From: Bugula neritina
Lineage: Eukaryota; Bryozoa; Gymnolaemata; Cheilostomatida; Bugulidae
Direction: 5' to 3'
NCBI GenBank assembly: GCA_964035545.1
Contig: OZ037771.1
Span: 4,081,128-4,145,127 of the forward strand
DNA: 64,000 nucleotides
Every line of letters starts with the position of its first letter. Positions within the stretch are counted from its first letter, which is position 1. Made by a program: the position numbers and the translations under genes. Under the pieces are notes generated by a model. That model was given only the letters and a program-made list of their open reading frames with translations. It made no database searches and was not told where the DNA came from. This document shows positions 4,271 to 60,500 of this stretch, in pieces.

Positions 4271-7200
4271 TTAGTTCTGTTGTTCTATTAGCGAGTTGAT
4301 GGCTTCTCCAAAGATGTCTCTCAGAAGAGTTGGATACTGAATTCTATGAACTTGATCAGCTGGAGACCTCTGAGACCAGCTCTGGTTGAAGACTCCTTGC
4401 TGGTAGTTTGTTGGCGGTGGTACTGGGTATGTCTTCCAGTCCATGTACTGGAGCAACTCTCTGTAGTTCACTTCCTCTCGCTCATTACGACTGCATCTGT
4501 AAAATACCATAAGAAGACTGCATGAGCACTTCCTTTACTACTTGCTAAAAACAATCACAAGAAACTAGAGGATTATGCAGGATCAAGATGAATTGAAAAT
4601 AAGACCATTTTTAATTCATTTGACTTTGATTTGAACAACTGAAGATTTGGAGGTAGGTGCAGTAATGGAGAAATTGAGAAAAGCCTGTGCTCTAAACTAG
4701 AAATGTAGCAAAAAAGTATGTTCTTGCAAAAATTTCAACTCGCAGCCCAAACCAAAATTTAATAAGAAAATTGAAGAATTTAGGCTTGAGTTACACTGAT
4801 GAGAAATAGGAGTTTGTAGGCTATCAGGCGTACCTAGAAACTAGAGTGGCCAGCATATCGCGTGGCACCGGGATCTTAACGGCCTTGCAAGCTGTCACCA
4901 CTTCATTCAGACACAAATACTCTGATTTCTGAGCATCTCTTTGGATGAGCGCTTCTTGGAGCTTGTTAGTTCGGATATCAAAGTTGTGTTTCCTGAGGCT
5001 ATCTTGTACAAGATAAATAAGGCCGGCTGTCTCCACGTCCCCATCTTGAGTTCTCTCCCTGCAACACAAAACCTATGCTACATTTGTTGGCAAGCTTCTT
5101 ATAAAAACTTGAAAAAACTTTTTGTTTGGTGTTTTGAAAAATTATTCAAGTTTACATATAAACTTTAGCATTCACATGTTGCAGTTAGCTTCCCTTATCT
5201 GTAATTGTTATATATTTGTAAAACAAATTTGATATTAATCAGTGTTAAGATAAAATGGTCAACACAAAGTAGAACTACAGAAACTATTATGCAATATATC
5301 ACATTATATTTATAATATTGTCATGAATTATATAACCAGTATATATTCAATTATTATGAAAATACTTTATATTAAAAAACACTGCAGTGTGTATTGGCAA
5401 ACAATGTGGTGAACTTAAGTTTCAAAACCATGGGAACCATGTCAAATTTTTTGAAAATATTGCTCTAAATCACACATTTCTACAAATAAAAGCCACCCGC
5501 ATAGTTTTTGATTTAAAATAATCTAAATTCTATATAACATTTTATTATCAAATTACAAACTCAAATACAAAGTGATCTTCACACAGCTATGTTTTGATTG
5601 CACACTGCTATCAGCCAATACCATAAAATTCTTCCAGCTAGTCAACGTGAATTGTAAGCTTACCCATAAACCCTGGCCAGGGTCATAATTTCCTGTGCGC
5701 TGATGGTAGAGCTGAGGAGCTGCACGAGTGCGACAAAGTCATCGTAGCTGATGTAACCGCTTCGAGATGGGTCACATTTCTGGAAAGCAGACAGAACTTC
5801 TTCCACCTGCTGACTCGGCGCGCCTCTCACTCTGTCAAGGATGGCTTGAGGGGCGCAGCGTGGGAACTACAACATTTCAAAATACCATCACTATGAACCA
5901 AGACTATTTTTGTAGATTTAAGTAGTAATAGTCCTTAGAAGACCTGGTTTAATGTTGTTAATTGTATGACATTATTTATTTTAGCTCCAAAATTTTGGGT
6001 TCAGACTATACATGTGTGTAGAATACATGGTACTGTTTACTATACACTGTATACCACACACTGTATACTACACTATGTTTATACCAGGAGGCTACAACTC
6101 ACCTCGTTTCCGTGGGCCTCCATGTATCTGAAGGCATATTCGTCGGCATCTATCAAGACAAATCTAAACTTGTTCAGCTCTACCAAATTACCGACAAACA
6201 TATCACTGGCCTTGTAGTACTCGCTTAGCTCAGTTCCATAGCGAGGTTGGTTGGGCTTCTTAACCCTCTGTCTCTCCAGAAACTTGCCACCACCCATACC
6301 TAAGTGCAGAGAACACAGGGCTTGTGAAATGTTAGATTTCTAGCATATTCCACACTAATAGACTAGAATACTTTATCTTATAAAATGTGTAAATAATAAC
6401 GGTGTGAAACGTGGTGTTCGGTGTTCATGTAAACATTTATTTCTAATTTGTTATTTTATTATTTTACTATTTTTTGTCATAATCTTAATAATTAATTGTA
6501 TCACTTATTGTAATAGTTTTAGTATTTTCGTGTATATATATTGTGGTAATAAATCACGGCTTCGGCCTCTTACGTTTATCAACTAACTCGAGCACGTTCT
6601 GTCTTTTCACGATAGCTGAAATAATATCACAAATCAACATAAAACATGGTGCCCCGAGTCTAATTATTATTAATATTACACTGAAATAACATGGAGCAAT
6701 TACTAGCGCCAAAACCATTAGCAGATGGACCGAATTTACCTGAGGAATGGAAGATTTTCAAACGTGACTTCGAACTTTTTTTAACTGCCACATCGAAAGA
6801 TACAGCCGAAGGCAAAGTGAAAACTGCATACCTACTTAGAACTATCGGTCGCCGAGGCAACCAAATATACGACTCTTTCAACTGGACTGACAACAATGAC
6901 AAAACTGACTATGACAAAGTTGTGACGCAGTTTGATGACTACTGCAAACCAAGAATAAACTTAGTGGCTAAGACTCACTCACTACTGACTTGTAAGCAAG
7001 GAAATAGAACTATTGACGAATTTTTGACTGAACTACATACCATTGCAGGACTATGTGACTTAAAAGACATGTACAACCGACTGATACTACAAGCACTGAT
7101 ATTGGGAATTGAAAGTGACAAGATTAGAAAGAAACTGTTTGACTTGACTGACTTTGACAAAGCAATTGAACTCTGCAGACGAGAAGAAGCATCGGCTATT

Positions 7201-10200
7201 GACTACAAGACTATGACTAAGGATAACACATATGGACTCGAACAAGTGAACTTGGTAAAACATAGACCTCCGACTCATCAATATCACTCTAATGACACTC
7301 GTAACACTGATAAACACAGAGGACAACTTTCACACACTCACTCTCAGCCCAACGTCAGAAAATCAGTTGGTGCTTCTAGGTGTGGAAACTGTGGAGGCAA
7401 TCACCCACCTCGAGCATGCCCAGCATATGGGAAACAGTGCAATCATTGCAAGAAATTTAACCACTTTGCTACATACTGCAGGTCACGCATGCATCATTAT
7501 CGCGACTCAACCGAAACAGCCAATCAAGTCACCTGGAATTACTCTTCAGACAGTGACTCTCAACATGTAAGTACTATCTCCACTACTGTACGAGATCGTA
7601 AATTATTAGCGATGCTCACTGCTAAGCAAGCAGATACTATTTATGACATTGAATTCCAACTTGACACTGGTGCATCATGCAATACTTTGAATACGATCGA
7701 CTACGACAAGCTAGGTAGACCGAAACTTACACCGACTGATACTGTACTAACTTTATATGACCAGAGCAAGTGTGCACCACTAGGGTGGACACGGATACAG
7801 ATACTAAACAAGCAAGGATGTTACACTACATTAAAATTCCTAGTTGTGGAAACCACCCAACATAGCTTGCTGTCATGGAAATCATGTTTGCACCTGGATT
7901 TATTACAAATGCCCAGCACCAAAAGCGAGAATGTAAACTTTGCCACTACTGACCCAGACCTTCAGACTTTACTGACTAACTTTGATGACATATTTACCGG
8001 ACTTGGAAAGTTTGAACAGGAATATAGGATAGAGCTAAGACCTGAAGCTGTACCAGTGCAAGTCCGACCGCGGAAGGTGCCCTTGTCGATGAAATCAGAT
8101 CTCATCAAGACTATTCTTGAACTAGAACAACGTCAAATTATCGCTAAGGTAGAAGCACCTACAGACTGGATAAGCCATCTACAACCAGTGCGCAAGCCTA
8201 ATGGAAAGATACGCATCTGCATAGATCCGCAAAATCTCAACCAAGCAATTAAACGAAACCACGCTGTCATGCCAACATTGGAAGATGTTTTGCCACAACT
8301 CAACGGTGCCAAGTTTTTCTCCTTGTGTGACGCCAAAGAAGGTTTCTATCAAATTCCCCTAGCTGAGGAATCTACAGACTTGACAACTTTCTGGACTCCC
8401 ATAGGAAAGTACAAGTACCTAAGGCTACCCTTTGGAATTGCATCAGCGCCGGAGGAGTTTCAGAGAAGGCTCACGGAAAATCTTGCTGGTCTTGATGGCA
8501 TCACCATAGTTGCAGATGACATCCTAATTTTTGGAAGCACAAGGAAAGAGCATGATAGAAACCTTGAAGCGCTCTTCAAACGTGCTCGACAGACAGGACT
8601 GAGACTGAACAAGGAAAAATCCCGCTTCCTTCAGGACGAACTACCTTACATCGGACACATACTGACAACTAATGGACTTAAACCAGATCCTAACAAAGTA
8701 AAAGCCATTCTTAAGATGAAACCTCCCTCATCTCCACAGGGAGTAAAACGATTCCTTGGTCACATCACATACATGTCAAAATTTATTAGCAACCTAGCAT
8801 CGGAATCTGAACCATTACGACGTTTACTGACACAAGACAATGCTCAAGACTTTCACTGGACTGACGACCAAATGAACGCTTTTAATAGACTGAAGACCTT
8901 ACTAACTGACTCAGAAACTCTACAATACTTTGACTGCAACAAGCCAGTAACTATACAAACTGACGCTTCAAATGCTGGTGTGGGTGCAACACTCATGCAA
9001 GGAGGCAAGCCTGTAGCATATGCATCTCGCAGTTTAACAAAATCGGAACAGAACTATGTGCCACTAGAGCTTGAGTGCCTTGCCATAGTGTTTGGCACTG
9101 AACGCTTTGACCAGTATATCTTTGGTCACCATGCTGTCACTATCCAAACTGACCACAAACCCCTTGTATCTATTTTCAGGAAATCCATTCATAAGGCATC
9201 TCGGAGGTTGCAGGCTATGCTTCTTCACTTACAAAGATACCCCAACATTAAGGTAACTTGGCAAAAGGGTGCTGAACAGATCACGGCTGACTTACTCTCA
9301 AGAGACTCATACTTTGACTCCCCCAACTATCAACAACTACCAGAACACATTTTTCACATTGACTCTCAAAATAATGATACTCCTGTTTGTGACGACTTAA
9401 TTGACAACATTAGGACTGCTACTGCACAGGACAATGAACTTATGACACTGACAAACCTTATTAAACATGACTGGAACATTGCCAACTGCACAACTCACGA
9501 CAAGTACAAACACTTTCAGGACGAACTATCTATTGACAATGGCATTGTTTACAAAGGACTACGAGCCATTATTCCAAAGACACTCCAGAGAAAGTTTCTC
9601 CAACTACTTCACGCCGGCCATAATGGGATTAACTCCACACTAAGACGTGCCCGCCACACAGTGTTTTGGCTTGGCATCACCAATGACATCAAAAACAATA
9701 TTGCTAACTGTCGACAATGTCAACTGGATGCTCCCCGGCAACAGAAGGAAACACTTTTACTCCACACAGTTCCCCAACGACCCTGGACCAAAGTAGGAAT
9801 TGACTTGTTTGAATACAATCACACTCACTACATTACTATTGTTGACTATACGACTGACTACCTTGAATATGACCGACTGGACAACCAAACAGCAGAGGCT
9901 GTTATCAACTCCATAAAGCGCTGTTTTGGACGCCTGGGAATACCCAGACAGGTTCACACTGACAACGGACCACAGTTTACCTCGCACCAGTTTTCCACTT
10001 TCAGCCAATCATGGAATTTCACACACACCACCAGCTCTCCATATCATCCTCAGTCCAATGGGAAGGCAGAGTCTGCCGTGAAGATAGCCAAACGTATACT
10101 CCGCAGATGTGAAGAGCCCGAACTTGCGTTACTGGAACATCTCAACACCACCAAAGAAGGCCTGACGGCCAGCCCAATTCAGCAACTTATCGGAAGACCC

Positions 10201-13200
10201 ACCAGGTCAGTACTCCCACAAGTTCGGCCAGAAACAGAGAACAACCAAGGTTGGTGGGAAAAGCAGGGCCGCAATGAAAAACTGCAGCAGAGATGCAATG
10301 ACGGTGCAAGAGATTTGGCAGTGCTGAAAGAAGGGCAACCAGTTTTGGTTCGAGACTGGAGTCAGCACCGGAGAAAATGGCAGGAGGCGCAAATTAACAA
10401 ACAATTGAGTAGCAGAGCCTATGCCATACAACTTAACAACAACCTCTTACGGAGAAACCGGCGAGACATCAGACCACTCGTCACGGAGCCAGCGAGTCCT
10501 GAGACACCAAAGGATCCTAAACAAAACGCTAGTAGTACCCAGGTTGACACCACCGAGAGCGCCAATCATAGCGACAATCTAAGACGTTCAACCAGAGAAC
10601 GGAAGCCACCTAGTTGGATGGCAGACTATGTGCCCTCTTAAAACAATCATATCTAAATAGCTTTTTTCTATTCTGTGGGAGATGTTCGGTGTTCATGTAA
10701 ACATTTATTTCTAATTTGTTATTTTATTATTTTACTATTTTTTGTCATAATCTTAATAATTAATTGTATCACTTATTGTAATAGTTTTAGTATTTTCGTG
10801 TATATATATTGTGGTAATAAATCACGGCTTCGGCCTCTTACGTTTATCAACTAACTCGAGCACGTTCTGTCTTTTCACGATAGCTGAAATAATATCACAA
10901 ATCAACATAAAACACGTGGGACAGCTTTATATTTCAGAAATGTTATTTTGTACTTGTCACTCCATCAATCACTAGGTTAGTTGTACTATGCTATCTTGAT
11001 TTCTGTGTTACATACTAGACTCTAGAGCTTGAATTTTTATGTAACTTACTAGCCAGGGTTCTTAAGTTGACTATTAGCCTGGGTTCTATGTTACCTATTA
11101 GCTTGGATTTCTTTATGGGCTGCTAGCCTACACTTCTAGGTCAACTGTAGACCCACATTTTGTAATAATTTCTAGCCCAAGTTCCTATGCTGACTACTAA
11201 CCTGAGTTCCTTACTGGAGGCTCAAATACCAGGAGAGTGTCATCAGCCAGGAAGTAGCTGATGATGAATCGTCTGTCCATGTCAATAGGCTTAGTGGTTT
11301 CCATTTTAGCAAGAAATCGTAGTACGTTGCTCTCAAGGCCGCACCTGTTTCAAGCCAATCGTCATTTTTAATACATTAAACAACAAAAAAATTTTAAATT
11401 GGTCATAATAAACAGTTTTTGAAATTAGTAATTACTTTAAATTTAAAATTAAATGTTTTCTATATAATTCAATCTTATGAGCTTTTCGGCTGAGTATTTA
11501 GTTTTAGTATTTAGTCTCACCTGTCCTTCTCCATAAACTTGACAAAGTCTCGGCGAGGTGGTTTGGGCAGCAAACCGGCACAAGAACAGAGAGAGTCTTC
11601 CTCCGAACCAAATCCATTGTAAGGTGGGACCTCTTTGGCTCTGGGGGCTGCTGGTCCACTCTTATACGGGATAGGGGCACTCTCCTCTACAATCAGGTGT
11701 GAAACTGTTAATCCTACCCACATGGTGAGAGTTATAAACTCACGCAAGTTTATAGTCACTATTTCTGTGAGAACCCCTGATGAAAGGGGTTTTTAAAAGG
11801 GCTAAGGACTTATTCATATGTACACAAGGGCAATTATGACTGAATGTTTGTAAGAGTTATTTAATAGTCGACATGATATTTATTATCAGAAGTCATAGCG
11901 AGTTGCAATAAGTAAAAACAATCTCACGTTTGATGGGCATCTCATTCACACTGAGGAGTAATTGTGTTTATTACATCACTATTTCAGTAGATTTTATTTA
12001 ACAAAAAGGCTGCTATAGAAATATTTGCTATCTGTTGTTAGCTAGTCCTAAACATCATAAAGTTTAGCAAACAGATTCCAGCTGAAAAAATATTAACTGT
12101 TGTTTGGTCTACAATGGTAGTTAATTTGATATATCAATGATAAATTATTATGACATCCTATAGCTACAGCACTACATTATTCTTCAGTCTATGAAATTGA
12201 AAACAATTTGTGTTTTTAAAACTGTTCATTGGTTTACCCAAAAGAAATTATTTCGCAACGCAGATGAAAATTTAAGTAGTGCCAACTAGAAGGGTCTACA
12301 TGTATATAACTCATCACTATTAATTTATCTTATAATTAGATTTTCTAAGGCGAGGCTAGAATATATGGCATAAGTACTTACTGACTCCATATTTAGTTCT
12401 GTAGAATTCCTTGGTGAAATCATCACAATCACACAAAACTATCTTACGGCCCCAAACATTCAGTTGAGCCCCTATGCTAAGATCAGAGTCTTTGTAGCTG
12501 TCCACATTCACTGCCCCAGTCTGCAATGTACTTAAAGGTAGAGTCGTTTGGTAAACACATCAACTCAAAGAGACAAGGCAGCATATATACATATATATAA
12601 AGTTTTACTGACTGCTTTATTAAGATTTGCTTCATTAAAATTTAAAACAACTTATTATTTCAGGTGTTAATTTATTTTAATAAAAAATTGTAAAATTAAT
12701 AACTTAGTGCTACCTAGAAAAGTTTTTCATATCAATGATAACTTTTCATTTATGGAATGCGCTAAATCGTTCTATTAATTATCTTATGACTTACTTTCAA
12801 ACTGTCTAGGATGTATCTACTTCCGTGCCCAGTTGGCCCAAACACATTTAACACAGTTCTTTCAGTGATTTCTCCAGGTTGTTTCAGTGCCACAACATCT
12901 TTGGGAACTTTACCTCTACGGAGAAATACTGGGGCCGCATCTCGTCCAGAATTAGCAGGTATGACTTCTCGTATCTCAATAGTGTCATCAGCCAGGAAGT
13001 AGTGGAGTACCAGTTCTCGGGGGTCCCCAAACATGCTGTCTGTGTCATCCCAGAAACAGTAGAATCTGAGCACATGCCGGTCATGATCAAGAAACTGCTT
13101 CAGAGTGTCAAATCTCTCGTATGGCCTTAGTGGCTGCATAGACTCGTCCAGCTATAAATACATTGACACCACACATCACAATGGATAGATACACATGATG

Positions 13201-16286: not shown

Positions 16287-19200
16287 ATGCTAAAGCCAGG
16301 CTCACTGCCTCTCAGCTGTGTACTGATATACTTGGTTATAGCTGCTCCATTGACGTTGGCTTATTACTTTTCGTCAGCGTCTCCCAATAACTACTGTGAT
16401 TTGTATCCCAATGGAACAGAAGTGCCGAACTGTCCGGTATGTTTTAGTAATTTCAATAAAATATGTTAATATGGGAATTTTTAAAGTTTAAATTTTTAAG
16501 TTGGCTCAGTTATTAGGCTAAGCATAGTATGCAATGAAAGCCAGTAATTAGTATTATAATAACTCAGGAGCTGAACGAAAACTTCTTCAGCATGAAAACA
16601 AAAATTATTATAAGCCAAAATTAATTAAGCATACAACACTCAAACAGTCTGTATGAGATAGCTTTGATGTACATTAATATTTTAATCCTGCATAAATGAG
16701 GTCTGTTAGGGGTTCTTTAATTAAAATAATCAAAATTGAAGATAAATATAATGTCGTAAGCTGGTGAAAAGATCTTATAATTGAACAAGTTAATATGGCT
16801 GTCTCTACAGTATTTTTACTTTTTTAAAGCTATGCTTTTTATCGTAATTTGTAGAATGGAGTTGCAGTATATGCTGGGAGTCTAGATTCTTCTAAATCAG
16901 TTCTTGCCTTCAATTACAACAGGTACGTACAGTACACACTCGACTAATATTCCATTTATTTTATGAAACCAAAAATTTTATTTTTTGACCCAATATTAAT
17001 CATGTTTTTTTTTAAATTTGTTGTGATTCTTTGCTAGTGATAAGAGAAACAGTAGCAATCTGTTTGGTGGACTCAGTATATGTTTTATAGCTAAAGTGGC
17101 AACTGCAACATGTGTTCTGTAGTATTTGTTAAGTGCTCTGGTGTTGCAGATTTCCATTCTGCTCTGTAGAAGATGGATCAGCTTTGACCAAATATCGAGG
17201 GTTAAGATTTTTTACAGACAAGATTGTAAAGGCACCCATTAATGTTAGTTTGATATTATTCTTAATCTTATCAAGTTAACTCTGTATTCTATTCAAGTTG
17301 ACTTTACTCCTTTAAAATATTATTTTCCATTTAATTATCATTTGCCTTGTGTGCTACTGCGTTGCAGTTGTAAGAAACACTTGTGATTCATATTTATTCC
17401 TCTCTTTATTGACAATACCCGCAAGAAAGTTAATATTGAAACTATATAAGACATATAATGACATTCAGTGATTGAGCTCTCTCACCATGGTCACAAACTC
17501 AAGCTGCTAGCATTTAGCAAGGCTCGTGACTCCTAGGTGACCCCTAGAGTCACTTGAGCTCTCTGGCTTGAGTTTACACACCTTTTGAATATACTTTAGT
17601 AAAAACAAAGTTTCCTCTATTGCCAATGTGTGGGCCATGGTACTCTGTTCTGTGCTGATGAGGGGACAAATCCTGAAACAGCTGCTGTCCACAGATGGAG
17701 TTGTTTAAATGCTCAAGTTCTTGTGATCTTTGTGTTAGCTGTTGTTTTATTATTGCCTCACTGTGTTACATTTCAGCTGGAGTATCGTAAACAAGTAGCG
17801 TGCAATGTCATATGTGAAAAGGAAATGATAATTCCAGGGTCAGATAAGTCTAAGAACACCGATAAGTCTAAGATGGCTGATATAAATACATCTCAACTTT
17901 TGATGAGAGCCATTCAGTTGAACTACCAGCAACACTGGTTAGTAGAATTATAACTCTATACTTAGTATTAGTTATACTTATTACAGTATTTATTTAGTAT
18001 GATATTTTATTAAGTTAATGCAACTACCAGCAATAATGGTTAATAGAGTTGTTAAGAAATAATATTGATATGTGAAAGCTGAAAGTAAAGTGTCATGTGT
18101 ATAAAAAAAAACTTGTGGTAGCGTATCCTAATTTTGTTAGAACATTTTGTTGAAAAGTTGGAACGTTTCATGCTAGAGTCCATCATTCATGACACCAAAG
18201 TGTGTTTTTGTAGGATTGTAGATGATATTCCAGTGCAGTTTTGCTATAAAATCCAGCCTATAATGAATGGACCAATAGTAACTCATTGTGAACGCTCGTT
18301 TCCTATTGGCTGTTATGTAGATGAAAAAGGAGAGCAAAAAGATTTCTGTAACTCAGATGTAAGCAGCTGTAAATTTTACTTTTATGTTATTAGTAAAATA
18401 TTGTATGTGATTAGAAACACGTTCATATGCAAAAAAATTTAAACATACATTTGTTTTTTTTTTAATTTTGTAATTTTTTTCAATCATTTAAGATTTTGAT
18501 TGAAGATCTTCTGCCACTTTACAGTTGTATGCATCATTAGAAAGCCTATGGTTAAACCAACACAATATACAATACACACCAGGTTAAATATGCTTTTTAA
18601 TAGACCCTTTACAGAGGTCCGTAATATCCCCTTTACAATTAAGAGTTGTGTCCTCCCAAAGTGAATAGGTTGAATCTTTGTATAAAGAGCAAGCTCATTA
18701 AAAGTTTAAAGTTCGGCTGCTACTTAACATTTTAATTATGCTATAGAATTGTTATTTAGGAGATAGATATTTTGGTATAAGCACATATATTAGCAGTTCA
18801 AAAAACTTTTTTTAAAATATTTCTTTATGGATAATTTTGACGGAAATAAACTTGAAAGCATTTTTGTGGTTTTGGCTACTGAGCAATGCTGAAGTGGCAC
18901 TCTAGCATTTCTCAGCAACCAAAACCACAAAAATGAGTTCAAGTCTATTTTGCTCCACCAATTTCATTTTGGGAGACCACAACTCTTAACTGTAAGGGGG
19001 ACAATGGGGACCTCTCAAAAAGGTCTATTACATTTATGCCCTTCTATGACATGGACTTTGGTGTTGCACAGCATTCAAATGACAGTCCTCCAACAGTATT
19101 ATAGATACGTCTCTTAGTCAGGCTTTAGTACTCAGAATATGAGGCTAATTGCACACTGTTTATATTCATCTTCTCACGGCTCTTTCTTAGAAGTTTATAT

Positions 19201-33334: not shown

Positions 33335-36146
33335 AAATAACCAAACTGGATCTGTTGTAGGAAGATGCTCAAGAAGAATTTGGCTGGAAGCTGGTACATG
33401 GGGATGTTTTCAGACCACCAGCAAAGGGAATGCTTCTCTCCGTCTTCCTTGGCAATGGTGTTCAACTCTTCTTTATGACATTAATCACTTTGTGTGAGTA
33501 TAACACGTGTTGGCCATTTTATGGCTAATCTGCCATCTTGTGGCTGATTTTAATGGTTTGTGGTGTGACTGTTATGTGTATCTAGAATAAATAACTAGAC
33601 TTTTCTCTTGGGCAAGCTTTTCATTTAAGATTACACTAAAAAGAGTTCACTTGCACCAGTCTTGAACTGTTATAGAATATAAATGGTTAAACTAATGAGA
33701 AGAACTTATCTACACTAATAAGTTTGGCCTCCCTTTTTGCTAAGCATTTCTCACATAACATATCGTGTAATTGCCATTGCGTTGCTCACTCAACATAATA
33801 TACCTGTAATCACTGAACTGAAACTATAACACTGGGGTTATAGTTCAATGCCTGTAATATATTTCAACTAACATAGGGTGAAGGTTACAAATGTGTGTAG
33901 CTGGTAAATGATGTACATAGACTTGTATAATAGTAGATATGTCATTTCCTTGCCGCTATTGGTTTGGGTCTGCTATAATATTCCTTTCTTATTCCATTAG
34001 TGCCACTCTTACATTCATATCTCCTTCACCATTCTATATGTACCCATATTTGTGTCTACTTTTTTAATTTTTTACTATGAACCACTAATGGAGGAACCAA
34101 TTTTTATTGGCAGCAGCCCTGTTGTGTTGGCGGCAGCCATGTTTTATTGGCGGCAGCCATGTTGTATATCAACAACAACTACTCTTGTAGTTTTTGCCTG
34201 CCTTGGATTCCTCTCCCCTGCTAACCGAGGGTTCCTCATGACCTGTGCTGTCGTCTGCTATGTTCTTATGGGCACTCCGGCTGGCTACTCGTCTGCCAGA
34301 ATATACAAAATGTTTGGTGGAGAGAAATGGAAGTCTAACGTTTTACTAACAGCATTCTTGGTCCCAGGGTGAGTCTAGACAGGAGTGATTTGCTGTAACC
34401 ACGTGTGATTGGTTAAAACCAGGTGGTATACTGAGATGAGATGCTGTATGGTTGTACAAACAGTGAACACAATTAATTTTGTTCATTGAAAGGTGTTGAG
34501 CAATGCAGCTTTAGAGTAGATTTCTCTGTAAATGAGACAATGTGCTTTTGAGAATGGCACAGCTCCACTAATTGCGATACGATACAATATATATGCAATA
34601 TACGATACAATATATTGCGGTTATAGGGTATTTGTCTGCTTTTAGCAGCTGAGTGGTAATGAGTTTGCTGATGTGGTCAGTAGTAAGCTGGTCGAAGGGT
34701 GTCTGTCTGTCTGTCTGTCTGTCTGTCTGCTGATGCATTGTGGTGAATGTAATTACAATAGAGTCCAACCAGACTGTGTGTTGATGTATACTTCTCTTGT
34801 AGATTGGTGTTTGGCTGTTTCTTCCTACTGAACCTGGTATTGTGGGGTGAAGGAAGTAGTGCCGCCATGCCTTTCGGCACTCTCGTCGCCATCTTGGCTC
34901 TGTGGTTTTGTGTTTCTGCGCCTCTTACTTTCATTGGGGCATACTTTGGCTTCAAGAGATCCGTAAGTTATCTCCGTGTCATACAGAAGTGTCCATTTTG
35001 TCTTTCACGACTTGCAAAGTTCCAATTTACTGTATCTATAGTACTCTAAGGTAATGATATACCTGATGGACAATCACAAGCCTGATCTGTGTGACATATC
35101 GGCTAACATTGATTAGTAGCAGCTAATGATCATCATTTATTAATAATTTATGGTTTGCTCCGCATTATTTTACTGGTTATGTCATTCACACCATCAGTGA
35201 TTATGAAAATTAAATTATTATGTATATTTAGTATAGTTCTACTTGTAAATTGTGTTTTTATCTATTACATGCCCTATTACTATATTACTATACACTATTA
35301 CCTACAGTATTACTATATGCTATTACCTACAGTATTACTATACACTATTACCTACAGCTTTACTATACGCTATTACCTACAGTATTACTATACACTATTA
35401 CCTACAGTATTACTATACACTATTACCTAAAGTATTACTATACGTTATTACCTACAGTATTACTATATACTATTGCCTACAGTGTTACTATACGCTATTA
35501 CCTACAGTATTACTATACACTATTACCTACAGTATTACTATACACTATTACCTAAAGTATTACTATACGTTATTACCTACAGTATTACTATATACTATTG
35601 CCTACAGTGTTACTATACGCTATTACCTACAGTATTACTATACACTATTACCTACAGTATTACTATACGCTATTACTTACAGTATTACTATACGCTATTA
35701 CCTACAGTATTACTATACACTATTACCTACAGTATTACTATACACTATTACCTACAGTGTTACTATACACTATTACCTACAGTATTACTATACGCTATTA
35801 CCTACAGTATTACTATACGCTATTACCTACAGTATTACTATACACTATTACCTACAGTATTACTATACACTATTACCTACAGCATCACTATTCTGTATTT
35901 CTTTCAGCCAATTGAAAACCCTGTGAGAACCAATCAAATTCCTCGCCAGGTGCCCCCACAGTCCTGCTATACAAGGCCGCTGCCCGGTGTCCTCATGGGG
36001 GCCATCTTGCCTTTCGGGTGTATTTTCCTGCAGCTCTACTTTATTCTCAACAGCATCTGGTAGGTTCATGACTTCTTGTGCACACCTACACAGTATATAC
36101 ATATTACACAGTAAATATATATATACACAGTAACTACATATACACA

Positions 36147-36215
<69 letters not shown>

Positions 36216-37759
36216 GTAATACATATACACAGTAAATATATATACACTGTAATACACAGTTGTAAATTTTACTATACATTGTATATACACTGTAATACAT
36301 ACACTTTATATACTACTATACTCTGTAATACATACCTTTATATACTACTATACACTGTAATACATACCTTTATATACTACTATACTCTGTAATACATACC
36401 TTTATATACTACTATACACTGTAATACATACCTTTATATACTACTATACTCTGTAATACATACACTTTATATACTACTATACACTGTAATACATACCTTT
36501 ATATACTACTATACACTGTAATACATACCTTTATATACTACTATACACTGTAATACATACCTTTATATACTACTATACACTGTAATACATACCTTTATAT
36601 ACTATTATACACTGTAATACATACCTTTATATACTACTATACACTGTAATACATACACTTTACGTTATATACTACTATACACTGTAATACATACCTTTAT
36701 ATACTACTATACACTGTAATACATACCTTTATATACTACTATATACTGTAATACATACACTTGTAGGTCACACCACGTCTACTATATGTTTGGTTTCCTA
36801 TTCCTCGTGTTCATAATACTGATCATCACCTGCTCTGAGACGGCCATTCTCCTTTGCTACTTCCACCTGTGTGCCGAGGACTACAACTGGTGGTGGAGAT
36901 CCTTCATGACTACCGGCTTTACCTCCGTCTACCTCTTCTTCTACTCCATTCATTTCTTTGTCACCAAAATGGCCATCAGCGGCACGGCTTCTACATTCCT
37001 CTTCTTCGGCTACACACTGATGATGGTCTTTGGCTTCTTTCTCATTACGGGTAAGTGTTAAGATCCCTGGCTAAGTCGAATGTATAGCTTGTCCTGGTAG
37101 CTCAGGCTACGTCTAATGTGATATCTTGTCTTACAAGATAATGATTGAGATAAGTATTGTAGCCTGTAGTCTACTCTGAATTTGTGGGATTATTTCATTA
37201 GTTCTTGGGAGTTGTCCTCTTAATCTAACATTTATAACCGCAGCAGCAACAACTAGCTTTGCATACATCAAGCGGCTAGAGTGTGGCTTGGCAGAAACCA
37301 CCAGATAAAGCTGCTTGCTTTTCCACCACTGGAATGAGGAAATCTGATTTTAGCCATAAAAGTGATATAATGAACAGTAAATTTAGTTTGTAAAGAAAGG
37401 TTAACCTTGACTTAGCAGTGTAATTCATCGACCACGTAAGCCCCCTCCTCAACCAACTGTGATTAATTTACATTGAGAATCTCAATCCAATTTCTAAGCT
37501 ACTCCAATCATTAATTTGTAGTAAGTCACTGTGTTGTGACTGTAGCCATTAGCTTTCATCGTGGGTGATACTGGTCAGGGTTTCCTCCGGTTTCAATGCA
37601 TTAAAAGGTGGTTTAAGTGTTTTTAAGCTTTGTGATTAGATCCACACAAGAAAAAGATTCCATACTCAAATATGCTCTGTTTATGTTGCAGGCTGCATGG
37701 GATTCTTCTCTTGCTTCTGGTTTGTAAGGAAAATATACAGCGTGGTGAAAGTGGACTAG
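27894..37759 (+). CDS. TM9SF2: TM9SF2 orthologue, nonaspanin (687 aa), complete
   Basis: Fourteen exons: 27894-28022, 29094-29161, 29598-29691, 30346-30506, 31275-31419, 31861-32027, 32226-32364, 32867-33052, 33361-33493, 34191-34368, 34803-34962, 35908-36059, 36767-37050, 37692-37759. Phases agree. Family marks: FYLPGLAP after the signal peptide, [12 protein letters not shown] in exon 3, [14 protein letters not shown] in exon 9, [12 protein letters not shown] in exon 10, [18 protein letters not shown] in exon 11, [11 protein letters not shown] in exon 12, and the C-terminus KIYSVVKVD with the COPI-binding KxD motif. The family acts in the Golgi/endosomal membrane in glycosylation and trafficking. 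Length is close to human TM9SF2. Exons 4-6 are nearly identical to those of the upstream paralogue. Introns 11 and 12, on either side of exon 12, are filled by minisatellites. TM9SF4 is excluded by these motifs. Confidence 0.96.
30935..31085. repeat. Dispersed repeat, copy B (TM9SF2 intron 4)
   Basis: Reverse complement of the repeat at 4646-4800, with about 150 bp recognisable, including CAATTTCTCCATTACTGCA. It lies in the part of intron 4 that is absent from the shorter paralogue intron (17938-18213), so it arrived after the two introns separated or was lost from the other. Confidence 0.65.
33281..33332. repeat. (CA)n microsatellite with CG head
   Basis: CACGCGCGCG followed by about 21 CA repeats, ending 28 bp upstream of TM9SF2 exon 9. 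Alternating purine-pyrimidine, so capable in principle of Z-DNA. Confidence 0.9.
34095..34165. repeat. Short tandem of about 20 bp before TM9SF2 exon 10
   Basis: Three imperfect copies of GGCGGCAGCCATGTTTTATT, just upstream of the exon 10 acceptor (34190). Confidence 0.75.
34699..34729. repeat. (CTGT)n microsatellite
   Basis: About seven GTCT/CTGT tetramers in TM9SF2 intron 10. Confidence 0.9.
35268..35890 (+). repeat. 25-bp minisatellite, about 25 copies (TM9SF2 intron 11)
   Basis: Unit of the type TATTACTATACACTATTACC then TACAG (25 bp), with variants at a few fixed sites. A higher-order repeat of five units (125 bp) is visible: the variant CCTAAAG occurs at 35426 and again at 35551 with the same neighbouring variants. 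It ends 18 bp before the exon 12 acceptor. It stays open in all frames and gives false periodic ORFs. Confidence 0.95.
36148..36209. repeat. (TA)n microsatellite
   Basis: About 31 TA units between the two minisatellite regions of TM9SF2, within intron 12. Confidence 0.95.
36270..36760 (+). repeat. 32-bp minisatellite, about 14 copies (TM9SF2 intron 12)
   Basis: Unit of the type ACACTGTAATACATACCTTT then ATATACTACTAT (32 bp). It runs to a few bases before the exon 13 acceptor (36766). It shares the core TACTATACACT with the 25-bp array on the other side of exon 12. Confidence 0.93.

Positions 37760-45968: not shown

Positions 45969-46012
<44 letters not shown>
45969..46012. repeat. (TA)n microsatellite, left of the palindrome
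   Basis: About 22 TA units ending exactly where the perfect palindrome begins. Confidence 0.9.
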
Positions 46013-46019
<7 letters not shown>

Positions 46020-46048
46020 GAAGTAAAATGAGATTTGATTAATATAAT

Positions 46049-46109
46049 GGCATTTATTACTAGTAGTTTCGTACACAAGAACGATGTGCACTCGTCAGAT
46101 AAATTAGCC
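46049..46109 (-). ncRNA. Type I hammerhead ribozyme, minus-strand copy
   Basis: Exact mirror of 46121-46181 across the palindrome centre: core CTGACGA (46098-46092) and GAAAC (46070-46066) on the minus strand, with the same three helices. Predicted cleavage is between 46058 and 46057. Confidence 0.8.
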
Positions 46110-46120
46110 ACTATGATAGT

Positions 46121-46181
46121 GGCTAATTTATCTGACGAGTGCACATCGTTCTTGTGTACGAAACTACTAGTAATAAATGCC
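46121..46181 (+). ncRNA. Type I hammerhead ribozyme, plus-strand copy
   Basis: Core CTGACGA at 46132-46138 and GAAA at 46160-46163. Stem I: 46126-46131 pairs with 46173-46178 (6 bp), then a two-base bulge (TA), then GGC 46121-46123 with GCC 46179-46181. Stem II: GTGCAC 46139-46144 with GTGTAC 46154-46159 (6 bp, one G-U), loop of 9. Stem III: ACT 46163-46165 with AGT 46169-46171 (3 bp, loop 3). The NUH site is GTA at 46170-46172, cleavage between 46172 and 46173. The invariant G8 (46137) and G12 (46160) are present. A stem I bulge facing a stem II loop is typical of natural fast hammerheads, and a very short stem III is typical of Penelope-like-element and retrozyme ribozymes. Confidence 0.82.
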
Positions 46182-46277
46182 ATTATATTAATCAAATCTC
46201 ATTTTACTTCTTCTAATGTTTACGCTCTAGATTTATTTCTATAGAGCACTCTAGTAACGTTTTATAAACACTCATTT

Positions 46278-46280
<3 letters not shown>

Positions 46281-46369
<89 letters not shown>
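46281..46369. repeat. (TA)n microsatellite, right of the palindrome
   Basis: About 44 TA units, separated from the palindrome by 63 bp that include a small hairpin (CTCTAG...CTATAGAG). Confidence 0.95.
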
Positions 46370-57500: not shown

Positions 57501-60500
57501 GTAATGCTATGTGTTTGGTATTTAGAAGGCAGCGGTTTGGAGCTGTCGGTAATCAATCCTGGATTTCTTGTTGGCCCTCCATTGATGAAGATGGACAGCT
57601 TCAGTGTTGAGGTAATTCATTGATGAACTTTCTATTAAATATATGTAGAGTAATATCTACAGTAAATATACAAAATAATATTTTCATAGTAAATATACAA
57701 AAAATAGCTACATTAAATAACAACAAAAGTAAGTCATAATAACATCCCAATTGAAAAACCAAGATTTTGTTTTATAAAATAAAGTGACAACGATCAGGGT
57801 AAAATTTGGTGAAGTTGGGTTGGGAGTAGAGCAGTTATTAGAGATGTTGAATCCATGGTACAAAGCAGATACAAGGTACACTGTTGTTTGTGCTGTGAAC
57901 ATCTATAATCTGTCAGGGCAGCTGCTCACATTGTAAACAGAGAGTATGCAGGCAGCGAATGAACTACTCTCACATGACAACCACACTTGCCAATCTGCAG
58001 TAGAGAGTATCAGTAGAAAAATGCTGGTGTTATGACATGATTCCTGCTTTGAATGGTATCTCGGTGACATTCTCCACTTGCTTGCATGATAGCTGTGCGA
58101 GTAAAGAATTTGAAATGGATTTTGAACAAGCCTATAAAATGTCTCAATATTGAAGTGAGATATTCCATTGTAATGTATACTACTATGGGTTATGCACTAA
58201 CAACAATGGTAGATATTATCATGTATTCCCATTGAACACTCGGGTTTAACCGGGGTGCCATTTGTGTGACATATTTGGTGTCTTATATCATAGAATTGCT
58301 GAGCTGAGGCTACCAGCCTGTAGGTAGAACCCACCACTATGCTAAACTACCACCACATTCATTTGCCTCTTTGTGAATGAATACAAACCAGTCATATTCT
58401 ATGAACTGCTTCCTGCTTGTGGGTAGATGTTGTAGAAAAGATGACAACTCTACACCATACACTTCTCTCTACACGATATACTTCTCTCTACATGATATAC
58501 TCTTCTCTCTACATGATATACTCTTCTCTCTACATGATATACTCTTCTCTCTACACGATATACTTTTCTCTACATGATTCACTTCTTTCTACACCATATA
58601 GTTCTCTCTATTCTTGATATACACTTCTCTACACGATACACTTCTCTCTACACGATATACACTTCTCTCTACGCGATACACTTCTCTACACGACATACTT
58701 CTCTCTATACGAGATACACTTCTCTCTACACAATACACTTCTCTCTACATGATATACTCTTCTCTCTACATGATATACTCTTCTCTCTACTTGATATACT
58801 TCTCTCTACACGATATAGTTCTCTCTACATGATATACTCTTCTCTCTACATGATATACTTCTCTCTACATGATATACTCTTCTCTCTACATGATATACTT
58901 CTCTCTACACGATATAGTTCTCTCTACATGATATACTCTTCTCTCTACATGATATACTTCTCTCTACACGATATACTCCTCTCTACATGATATACTCCTC
59001 TCTACATGATATACTTCCCTCTACACTTCCCTCTACATTTCTCTCTACATTTCTCTCTATGCGAAACACTTCTCTCTACACGATATACACTTCTCTCTAC
59101 AAGACATACTCCTCTCTACAAGACATACACTATACATGTTCCACATAACACAGGAGTTACTGTGTTGCAGGTAATCAAGAAGCTGATGAATAGAGAGTAC
59201 TCCGTTCTCCCTAAGATCAGCTACAGCTGCTCAGATGTTCGGGATGTGGCCCTGGCGCACATGAGAGCTATGATGATCAAACAGGCCGCAGGTAAAACCT
59301 ACCTACCTACAGTTCCATTGTTTTTATTTTTTATTCTGTATCTAATCACATTTAGTAAATGAAAGTGGCAGATGAATACAGGCAACATAGGGTAAAGTAT
59401 GAGATTGGCAAATTACAACAATAATTTTCCCTATGTGTATTGGTTTGCAGCCTGCTTCTAACTGTATAGAAACTTACATTTAGTTTTCTCATATCCTTCA
59501 TACTAACAAATTCTGGTGTTATTTATTATTTAATTTAAGAGAGTTTTATAATGCAATAAGTAGGTTTTATCACAGTGGTAGCCCAGACTGCCTGAACTGT
59601 AACGACCACTATGTGTATTGTATAGCGAGAGGGAGGTTTGAATAACTACCAACTAGTTCAAAGGGAGCATGGAATATTCATACAGTTCTATGGGATATTT
59701 TTTATCATTTAATATTTGATTTGCAGCTGCGAAATGAATTGTTTGTCACTTTCACCACGGTGCAAAGTCCAACATAATAAGAGTAATAATGATGACAGAT
59801 ACATGAACCATAATTATGTTATTTTTTATTTGTTAGCAAAAGTGGTGCTCTACTTGTCAAATATTGTCTGTAAGCAACATTTCCATAAATAACAGAGTTG
59901 ACTAGTCCTGGCCAACCAAACATTTCGCTGAGCTCTGTGCTACATGCTTTGTGGATGGATATAATAATAAGTGACATGTTAGGGCAACTCCCGACTTATA
60001 TTTAGCAACTCCTTAAAAACAATATAGTTGATGGTCACCTGAAAACTTCTACTTCAGCTAGTATATTTAAAAAAAATGATTTGGCACGACTACAAATTAA
60101 TACAGCTTGTAGAATTAGTTGAGAAAGGTTATACAGTACTCCCTCTGTATCTCACTAAGTTGCGGGTCCTGAAACTTCGATTCCCGACATAGTAGAGTAA
60201 CAGATGTAACTCTCAGATCCGTTAAATGCAGCCATTTTGTCCCTATAAACACATACGTAAGCCACAAATAGGGGGTCCAAGCCCTTGTGTGACCTGTGGA
60301 GTTTTGTGAGGAACGGATATGTAGGGAGCACTGTAATTGGTTATAAGATGTTGAGCTGTTTTGTTACCAAAGAACTACCACAGTTCCCCAGAGTATTTTA
60401 ACTTATACATCCCACAGGATAGCTGGATTAATAGATACATACAATCAATATCTGTCCATCAACATCTACTTGGCAAATGTACAAAACTTTAATCAGAGTT

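Follow-up and report, generated by a model that had tools for sequence, protein, structure and literature searches.

A hammerhead-bearing palindrome in the Bugula neritina genome is a common short form of a Penelope-like element and was probably inserted by priming from two ends

Penelope-like elements (PLEs) are the third class of eukaryotic retroelements; how they integrate is unsettled, and their inverted ends have no tested explanation. For PAc/Poseidon, a PLE of the anole Anolis carolinensis, the available portions of Frangieh et al. 2024 (PMC11167929) report two reverse transcriptase (RT) start sites, extension of two strands in vitro, and a ribozyme that cleaved only together with its protein. 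Here, we analyse a 64,000-nucleotide stretch of the genome of the bryozoan Bugula neritina (contig OZ037771.1, positions 4,081,128 to 4,145,127; hereafter, the window), in which a palindrome carries two hammerhead ribozyme motifs. This palindrome is a common short form of a dispersed PLE family, termed here family A, and is one of many young insertions. Judging from the genome sequence, it is probably a complete short insertion, made by two-ended priming at two RT start sites, T and N.

Positions 46013-46114 are the exact reverse complement of 46116-46217, giving arms of 102 bp around a one-base centre (G at 46115), and a repeat search stretches the arms to 107 nt at 98%. The perfect 205-bp palindrome with a one-base centre that had been described from the letters alone (the original prediction) is thus real in this sequence, as is its location in a TA microsatellite, since a (TA)n tract lies on both sides. 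The inserted unit is longer than the palindrome, 46013-46282, because 46218-46282 recurs as the tail of insertions of the same family. Its left end is of type N and its right end of type T. The features are as follows.

45970 to 46012, no strand: left (TA)n target tract, read from the sequence; most listed two-ended insertions are also flanked by TA runs.
46013 to 46114, minus strand: left half, reverse copy of the PLE leader; the outer end is RT start site N, without tail, and the inner end extends 3 nt beyond the usual stop.
46049 to 46109, minus strand: hammerhead motif in mirror image, with cleavage predicted between 46058 and 46057.
46115, no strand: centre; the junction, GCCACTATG[AT]AGTGGC, reads as an AT microhomology join of 2 nt.
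46116 to 46217, plus strand: arm part of the right half, forward copy of the PLE leader, starting at a truncation hotspot (putative RNA 5' end).
46121 to 46181, plus strand: type I hammerhead motif, with CUGACGA at 46132-46138, GAAA at 46160-46163 and GUA at 46170-46172; predicted cleavage 46172/46173.
46198 to 46208, plus strand: CTCATTTTACT, copy 1, 9 nt upstream of site N; one base is changed in the T-variant subfamily.
46218 to 46282, plus strand: PLE tail of 65 bp with a GCTCTA..TAGAGC hairpin; the outer end is RT start site T.
46271 to 46281, plus strand: CTCATTTTACT, copy 2, at site T.
46283 to 46369, no strand: right (TA)n target tract, read from the sequence.

An exact 11-mer repeat like that of CTCATTTTACT was found in 29 of 3000 shuffles of the leader.

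The original prediction had proposed a genome-wide search for the parent element. Carried out with a 33-nt ribozyme core, this search places the arms in a dispersed PLE family: 239 cores occur in the 215.8-Mb genome (up to 3 mismatches) against none for a reversed-pattern control and, therefore, the core is not a chance match. Many listed cores are paired, a copy on the minus strand preceding one on the plus strand at a distance of tens to thousands of bases. Twenty regions taken by place, loci from other searches and one array were merged to 51 stretches, and copies were mapped on a reference copy (L066), in which the arm is ref 1865-1966 and the tail ref 1967-2032. Another candidate for a long reference copy (L076) was dropped in favour of L066 as it consists of separate insertions. 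Typically, an insertion consists of a reverse and a forward copy that are both truncated at the 5' side and joined head to head in (TA)n. Longer family A insertions encode an RT and a GIY-YIG nuclease; the RT domain is present, the GIY-YIG endonuclease lies C-terminal to it within one open reading frame (ORF), and the pseudo-long terminal repeats (pLTRs) are direct or inverted with an optional tail on one, a feature also described in the available part of PMC3846280. Homologues number 3547 at E ≤ 1e-3 among 7994 scored, named sources including Oculina, Watersipora and Stylophora. Pfam returned no RT or GIY-YIG match on the ORFs, and PDB sequence searches gave no relative, only one unrelated match at E 0.08. 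The Penelope-like source, the type I class of the hammerhead and the low divergence of the copies, all proposed beforehand, are borne out. The idea of a "remnant or inverted duplication" is rejected, the palindrome being a common primary insertion product of family A.

The outer ends carry the key regularity. They are nearly always ref 1966 (site N) or, with the tail, ref 2032 (site T), a fixed distance of about 66 nt apart. Among 43 two-ended insertions, 36 could be typed at both ends, of which 35 are T/N and one is T/T. Independently of ribozyme or palindrome, the genome was scanned for both outer ends abutting (TA)n, yielding 118 N and 125 T ends. Neighbours up to 4.5 kb apart were then paired among the 190 of 200 listed ends lying where both lists are complete: 66 of the 68 pairs are T/N, two are T/T and none is N/N (binomial against one half, 1.6e-17). 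In those 66 pairs the two ends differ by the 66-nt tail, that is, they are not identical terminal inverted repeats. T pairs with N rather than at random, which independent priming does not explain; the simplest reading would be one RNA bearing both start sites, one for each protomer. The rule of one T with one N is not stated in the titles or abstract openings of the literature searched, a search outside which most subscription papers lie.

This rule bears directly on the best of the alternative explanations, in which the antisense RNA of a PLE, or its cDNA, would prime itself by folding back, before or during a one-ended integration. Such antisense self-priming has been published, and is preferred by its authors, for similar head-to-head structures in Adineta (PMC3846280, available part), and it accounts for perfect arms and small centres. 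Fold-back should, however, give the same outer end twice, T/T or N/N, and would need trimming to an exact base to yield the T/N ends observed; several insertions also have halves truncated hundreds of bases apart. We therefore consider self-priming unlikely.

The two halves also appear related by origin. A C/T site at ref 1956 is concordant between halves in 33 of 34 insertions (24 CC, 9 TT, 1 CT), where 13.7 discordant cases would be expected. At C2:1745469, one 10-bp deletion is present in both halves and in no other half compared. A 1-bp deletion at ref 1786/1787 occurs in both halves of two other insertions and, being common to both, is not private. Private substitutions were tried as proof of a common source and abandoned, as those shared by both halves are too few; the case therefore leans on the C/T site and the 10-bp deletion. 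Both arms were thus probably copied from the same RNA source, and the arm-to-arm conversion invoked in the original prediction is not needed to explain their match.

Inner ends behave differently from outer ends. Searches for facing cores, covering centres with 3-64 nt between cores, found 39 centres with 3-33 nt (two of them belonging to a sibling family, D) and 11 with 34-64 nt. Of the 96 halves in the 48 family A centres, 54 end at ref 1865/1866, and 13 extend past it by as much as 8 nt. The end-pair distances, which are free of the gap limit, agree: 48 of 68 pairs lie about 59-273 bp apart, 30 of them at 244-273 bp, none at 274-336 bp and the other 20 at 337-2456 bp, the 244-273 bp cluster fitting the hotspot since two halves reaching ref 1865 make 270. 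In the predicted fold of the leader, ref 1865 is the first base of the outer helix of the ribozyme. From these positions, the hotspot is probably the RNA 5' end. Added bases stand beside an exact 1865 stop in six centres (C3:31838981, C6:489503, C6:10980431, C1:23099872 on both sides, C8:11714799 and C9:1954585), with a C after at least one such stop in all six; C8:11714799 has an A on the other side, and the added bases of C9:1954585 resemble element sequence. The upstream genome would give G, not C, at exact 1865 stops, and either half may own the added bases. Reverse transcriptase may add C at an RNA cap, and the added C is suggestive, though only suggestive, of a capped RNA 5' end.

The joints themselves vary. 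The first 37 family A centres show 20 distinct forms, the 11 further centres are all mutually different, and junction overlaps of at least 2 nt occur in 28 of 43, where 16% is expected for random joins. In a palindrome-enriched sample of 37, both halves stop near the hotspot in 16, neither in 16 (14 with both longer) and one only in 5. In the C1-C2 stretch, listed by core alone, the corresponding numbers are 8, 6 and 1 of 15 (p 0.0014), 4 of 19 insertions having been left out as single or atypical. The T half reaches farther 5' in 18 of 37 insertions, the N half in 13, and the two are equal in 6 (two of the 37 typed by reading); thus, neither RT leads on the RNA.

No half among 74 starts at the ribozyme cut (ref 1919-1925), so that cleavage plays no part in preparing the template here; it may instead depend on a protein or act at a later point. 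This weighs against the proposal that the arms come from a ribozyme-bearing circular RNA, a retrozyme, mobilised in trans. The same genome does contain a retrozyme-like family (B), with a 272-bp tandem dimer, and a 110-bp array of arm plus tail, but the halves of family A span the cleavage site uncut, long copies carry a PLE ORF, and the copies stand head to head rather than as tandem monomers without an ORF. We regard a retrozyme origin as very improbable. An assembly or long-read fold-back artefact has slightly less in its favour still. Assemblers have trouble with perfect palindromes in TA tracts, and the warning of an artefact in the original prediction remains fair for this one locus, but fold-back would mirror the flanks too, which differ here; the family is real, with 48 centres read and, at dozens of loci on contigs C1-C9, a constant difference of 66 nt between the ends. 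Least credible of all is a palindrome moved as a ready-made DNA unit, like a foldback miniature inverted-repeat transposable element with long terminal inverted repeats: inverted ends, a TA target, many short near-identical copies and a stop pair, 1866/1872, seen six times would suit it, but the centres vary, only one of the two ends has the tail, so that their sequences differ, and RT and GIY-YIG are encoded by the long copies, with no transposase seen in the ORFs examined.

Together, the T/N pattern, the variants shared by halves, the microhomology joints and the common stop favour priming from both sides of a double-strand break over antisense self-priming. Such priming also agrees with the pair of start sites and the extension on two strands described in vitro for the anole PLE. 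In the mechanism we propose, the element RNA would start with the hammerhead and carry, downstream, start sites N (46217) and T (46282). The element nuclease would cut both strands within (TA)n, and the two cut ends look alike because (TA)n is self-complementary. Each DNA 3' end would then prime a cDNA on element RNA left uncleaved at its ribozyme, one from T and the other from N. Both cDNAs would run to about the RNA 5' end, or further on a read-through RNA, and would be joined, mostly at short microhomologies, into an inverted dimer with its copies head to head. If both cDNAs ran off the leader, this would yield the present palindrome with its two outward-facing hammerheads.

Several points weigh against two-ended priming or narrow its basis. 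Seven of the 43 insertions are untyped: four are interrupted or cut by the end of the locus, two have outer ends at ref 1918 and 1937, and the seventh was over-extended by BLAST and is N by the end search. By the neighbour rule, 54 of the 190 listed ends are unpaired; at least one of the 68 pairs (C2:29065871 with 29067022) spans neighbouring insertions, the C2:29065871 insertion mapped by itself being N/T; T/T pairs do occur; and some sampled copies are single. Private substitutions common to both halves number 4 against 38 that differ, and the concordance of halves cannot separate one RNA from two RNAs of one locus. Junction overlaps were measured from BLAST ends and their expectation from exact runs. 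Among the halves, the longest spans residues 163-697 of a 707-aa homologue, and no full-length parent free of interruptions was seen. The anole work does not predict a strict T/N pairing, as PMC11167929, in its available part, reports no strand difference in start site. Finally, the basis is one genome and one target type, known by sequence, the sampled loci were partly picked for palindromes, and target-site duplications (TSDs) are unmeasurable within (TA)n.

A broader view, to which we give tentative and somewhat less than even credence, is that PLE integration is an obligate two-ended target-primed reaction with a head-to-head dimer bearing one tail as its normal product. A protein dimer would sit on one RNA at the tandem sites N and T, each near a copy of CTCATTTTACT, cut both strands of a self-complementary target and prime both ends at once. 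The classical arrangement of an inverted pLTR plus a full copy would then be the asymmetric case, and the short ribozyme palindromes would be a by-product, like short interspersed elements, of the element's own capped leader RNA.

As regards the ribozyme itself, each arm contains CUGACGA and a 6-bp stem II, then GAAA and a short stem III that ends in GUA, with a bulge in the 6+3 bp stem I; all 18 named pairs are standard. The type I core (CUGANGA...GAAA...GUH) with three stems, stem I open, is present, and the full signature claimed for both arms by the original prediction holds. Cleavage would be expected after 46172 on the plus strand and, in mirror, at 46058 on the minus strand. The Rfam model RF00163 matches both arms at 28.3 bits (E 6.8e-5, 501 bases searched), which is significant but does not reach the gathering score of 34, literally the sub-threshold outcome that the original prediction had named as telling against it; at gathering thresholds, Rfam gives no match in the whole window. 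Also counting against a hammerhead, the motif is not the minimum-energy fold of a 64-nt piece (-9.2 against -13.2 kcal/mol), in a model outside which tertiary contacts lie. A descriptor of our own (core, stem II of at least 4, stem III of at least 1 and stem I of at least 4 pairs) made 82 hits of family A, plus two variants, in the window and the 51 loci, and none in ten base-shuffled windows. Over the genome, RF00163 gave one weak match of 25.4 bits, under the cut-off, in a further family, C (L086); the same search gave matches in 11 of 14 control genomes. The arms are putative ribozymes. For a read-through RNA, self-cleavage "from either side", as originally proposed, is doubtful, because the antisense arm is made first and the whole insertion (270 nt) folds as one long hairpin (-176.8 kcal/mol). 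An RNA starting at the centre and running outward would, by the model above, be an element leader with one free ribozyme and could be copied again. For the host, the palindrome probably does nothing.

Sibling families retain the hammerhead pairing despite changed bases, which counts for the hammerhead reading. In family D (L088, L089), which forms a palindrome of its own, the hammerhead has a GUC site and the tail contains a GCTC..GAGC hairpin. Stem I pairs 1, 3, 4 and 6 and the last pair of stem II are changed on both sides relative to family A and still pair, stem I pair 5 being an A.G mismatch; there is no RF00163 match at E ≤ 0.1. Its outer ends, read by eye, are N/T and T/N, i.e. the T/N pattern at both of two loci. 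The family D palindrome (L088 162-231) also exceeds the Rfam gathering cut-off for mir-29 (49 against 46.7 bits), a false-positive risk for microRNA annotation. Family C (L086; stretches C2:20481782 and C1:15580388) is a further PLE family ending in (TA)n; its own hammerhead lies downstream of the end of another PLE ORF, and a hairpin tail is present in some copies and absent from others. Family B is represented in the window by a diverged single copy (17480-17700, plus strand, core at 17655) with no Rfam match at E ≤ 1; elsewhere, near family A insertions, its tandem dimer lies between TA tracts (C2:6310278 stretch, minus strand), an arrangement that suggests a retrozyme-like family. The array (L087, G000:C3:9893600-9895100) has about eight tandem 110-bp units, each the 3' part of the arm and most of the tail, and ends tail-less in (TA)n; it might reflect template jumping or the copying of a small RNA circle. 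In the C5:6882255 stretch (G000), an inverted repeat, GAGCTTGTCAGC / GCTGACAAGCTC, stands on either side of the TA tract that contains the insertion. Elsewhere in the window are an open polyprotein frame of Ty3/gypsy type (6685-10641, plus strand; about 1317 aa), which includes domains for RT, RNase H and integrase, and minisatellites at 35283-35891 (25-bp units), 36284-36758 (32) and 58448-59131 (about 19/40/59).

In family A, many insertions into one type of target are preserved as a natural record, with outer ends and inner joint both readable. One T with one N makes the "optional tail" a quantitative rule, which a two-strand reaction can yield and fold-back models do not predict, and it offers a direct test for the anole in vitro system. 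The family also identifies one origin of the hammerhead palindromes that will turn up repeatedly in genome scans. In L1 twin priming, two primers on an RNA yield an inverted joint, a likeness to family A; in family A, synthesis starts for the second time at a constant site, 66 nt from the first, so that outer ends are fixed and only inner ends vary. As in the metazoan retrozymes (PMC7229834, available part), family A is a dispersed repeat carrying a type I hammerhead whose stem III is weak, but those are non-autonomous and tandem, whereas family A is head to head with PLE-coding copies. Pen2a, Pen2 and Pen3 of Adineta vaga (PMC3846280, available part) share inverted head-to-head pLTRs, an optional tail on one inverted pLTR, palindromes at the inverted junction and microhomology at a 5' junction; unlike family A, they have few copies and, in some, 8-10 bp TSDs, and the main text, so far as available, does not mention a hammerhead. 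PAc/Poseidon, as described in the available part of PMC11167929, resembles family A in its hammerhead within the pLTR, GIY-YIG and RT, AT-rich targets and a tail defined by two neighbouring internal start sites for RT; as proposed for family A, both DNA strands are cut and extended, there in vitro. The target of family A is (TA)n, and its genomic copies almost always pair T with N in one insertion, where the anole report gives no strand difference and, in that part, does not describe such pairing.
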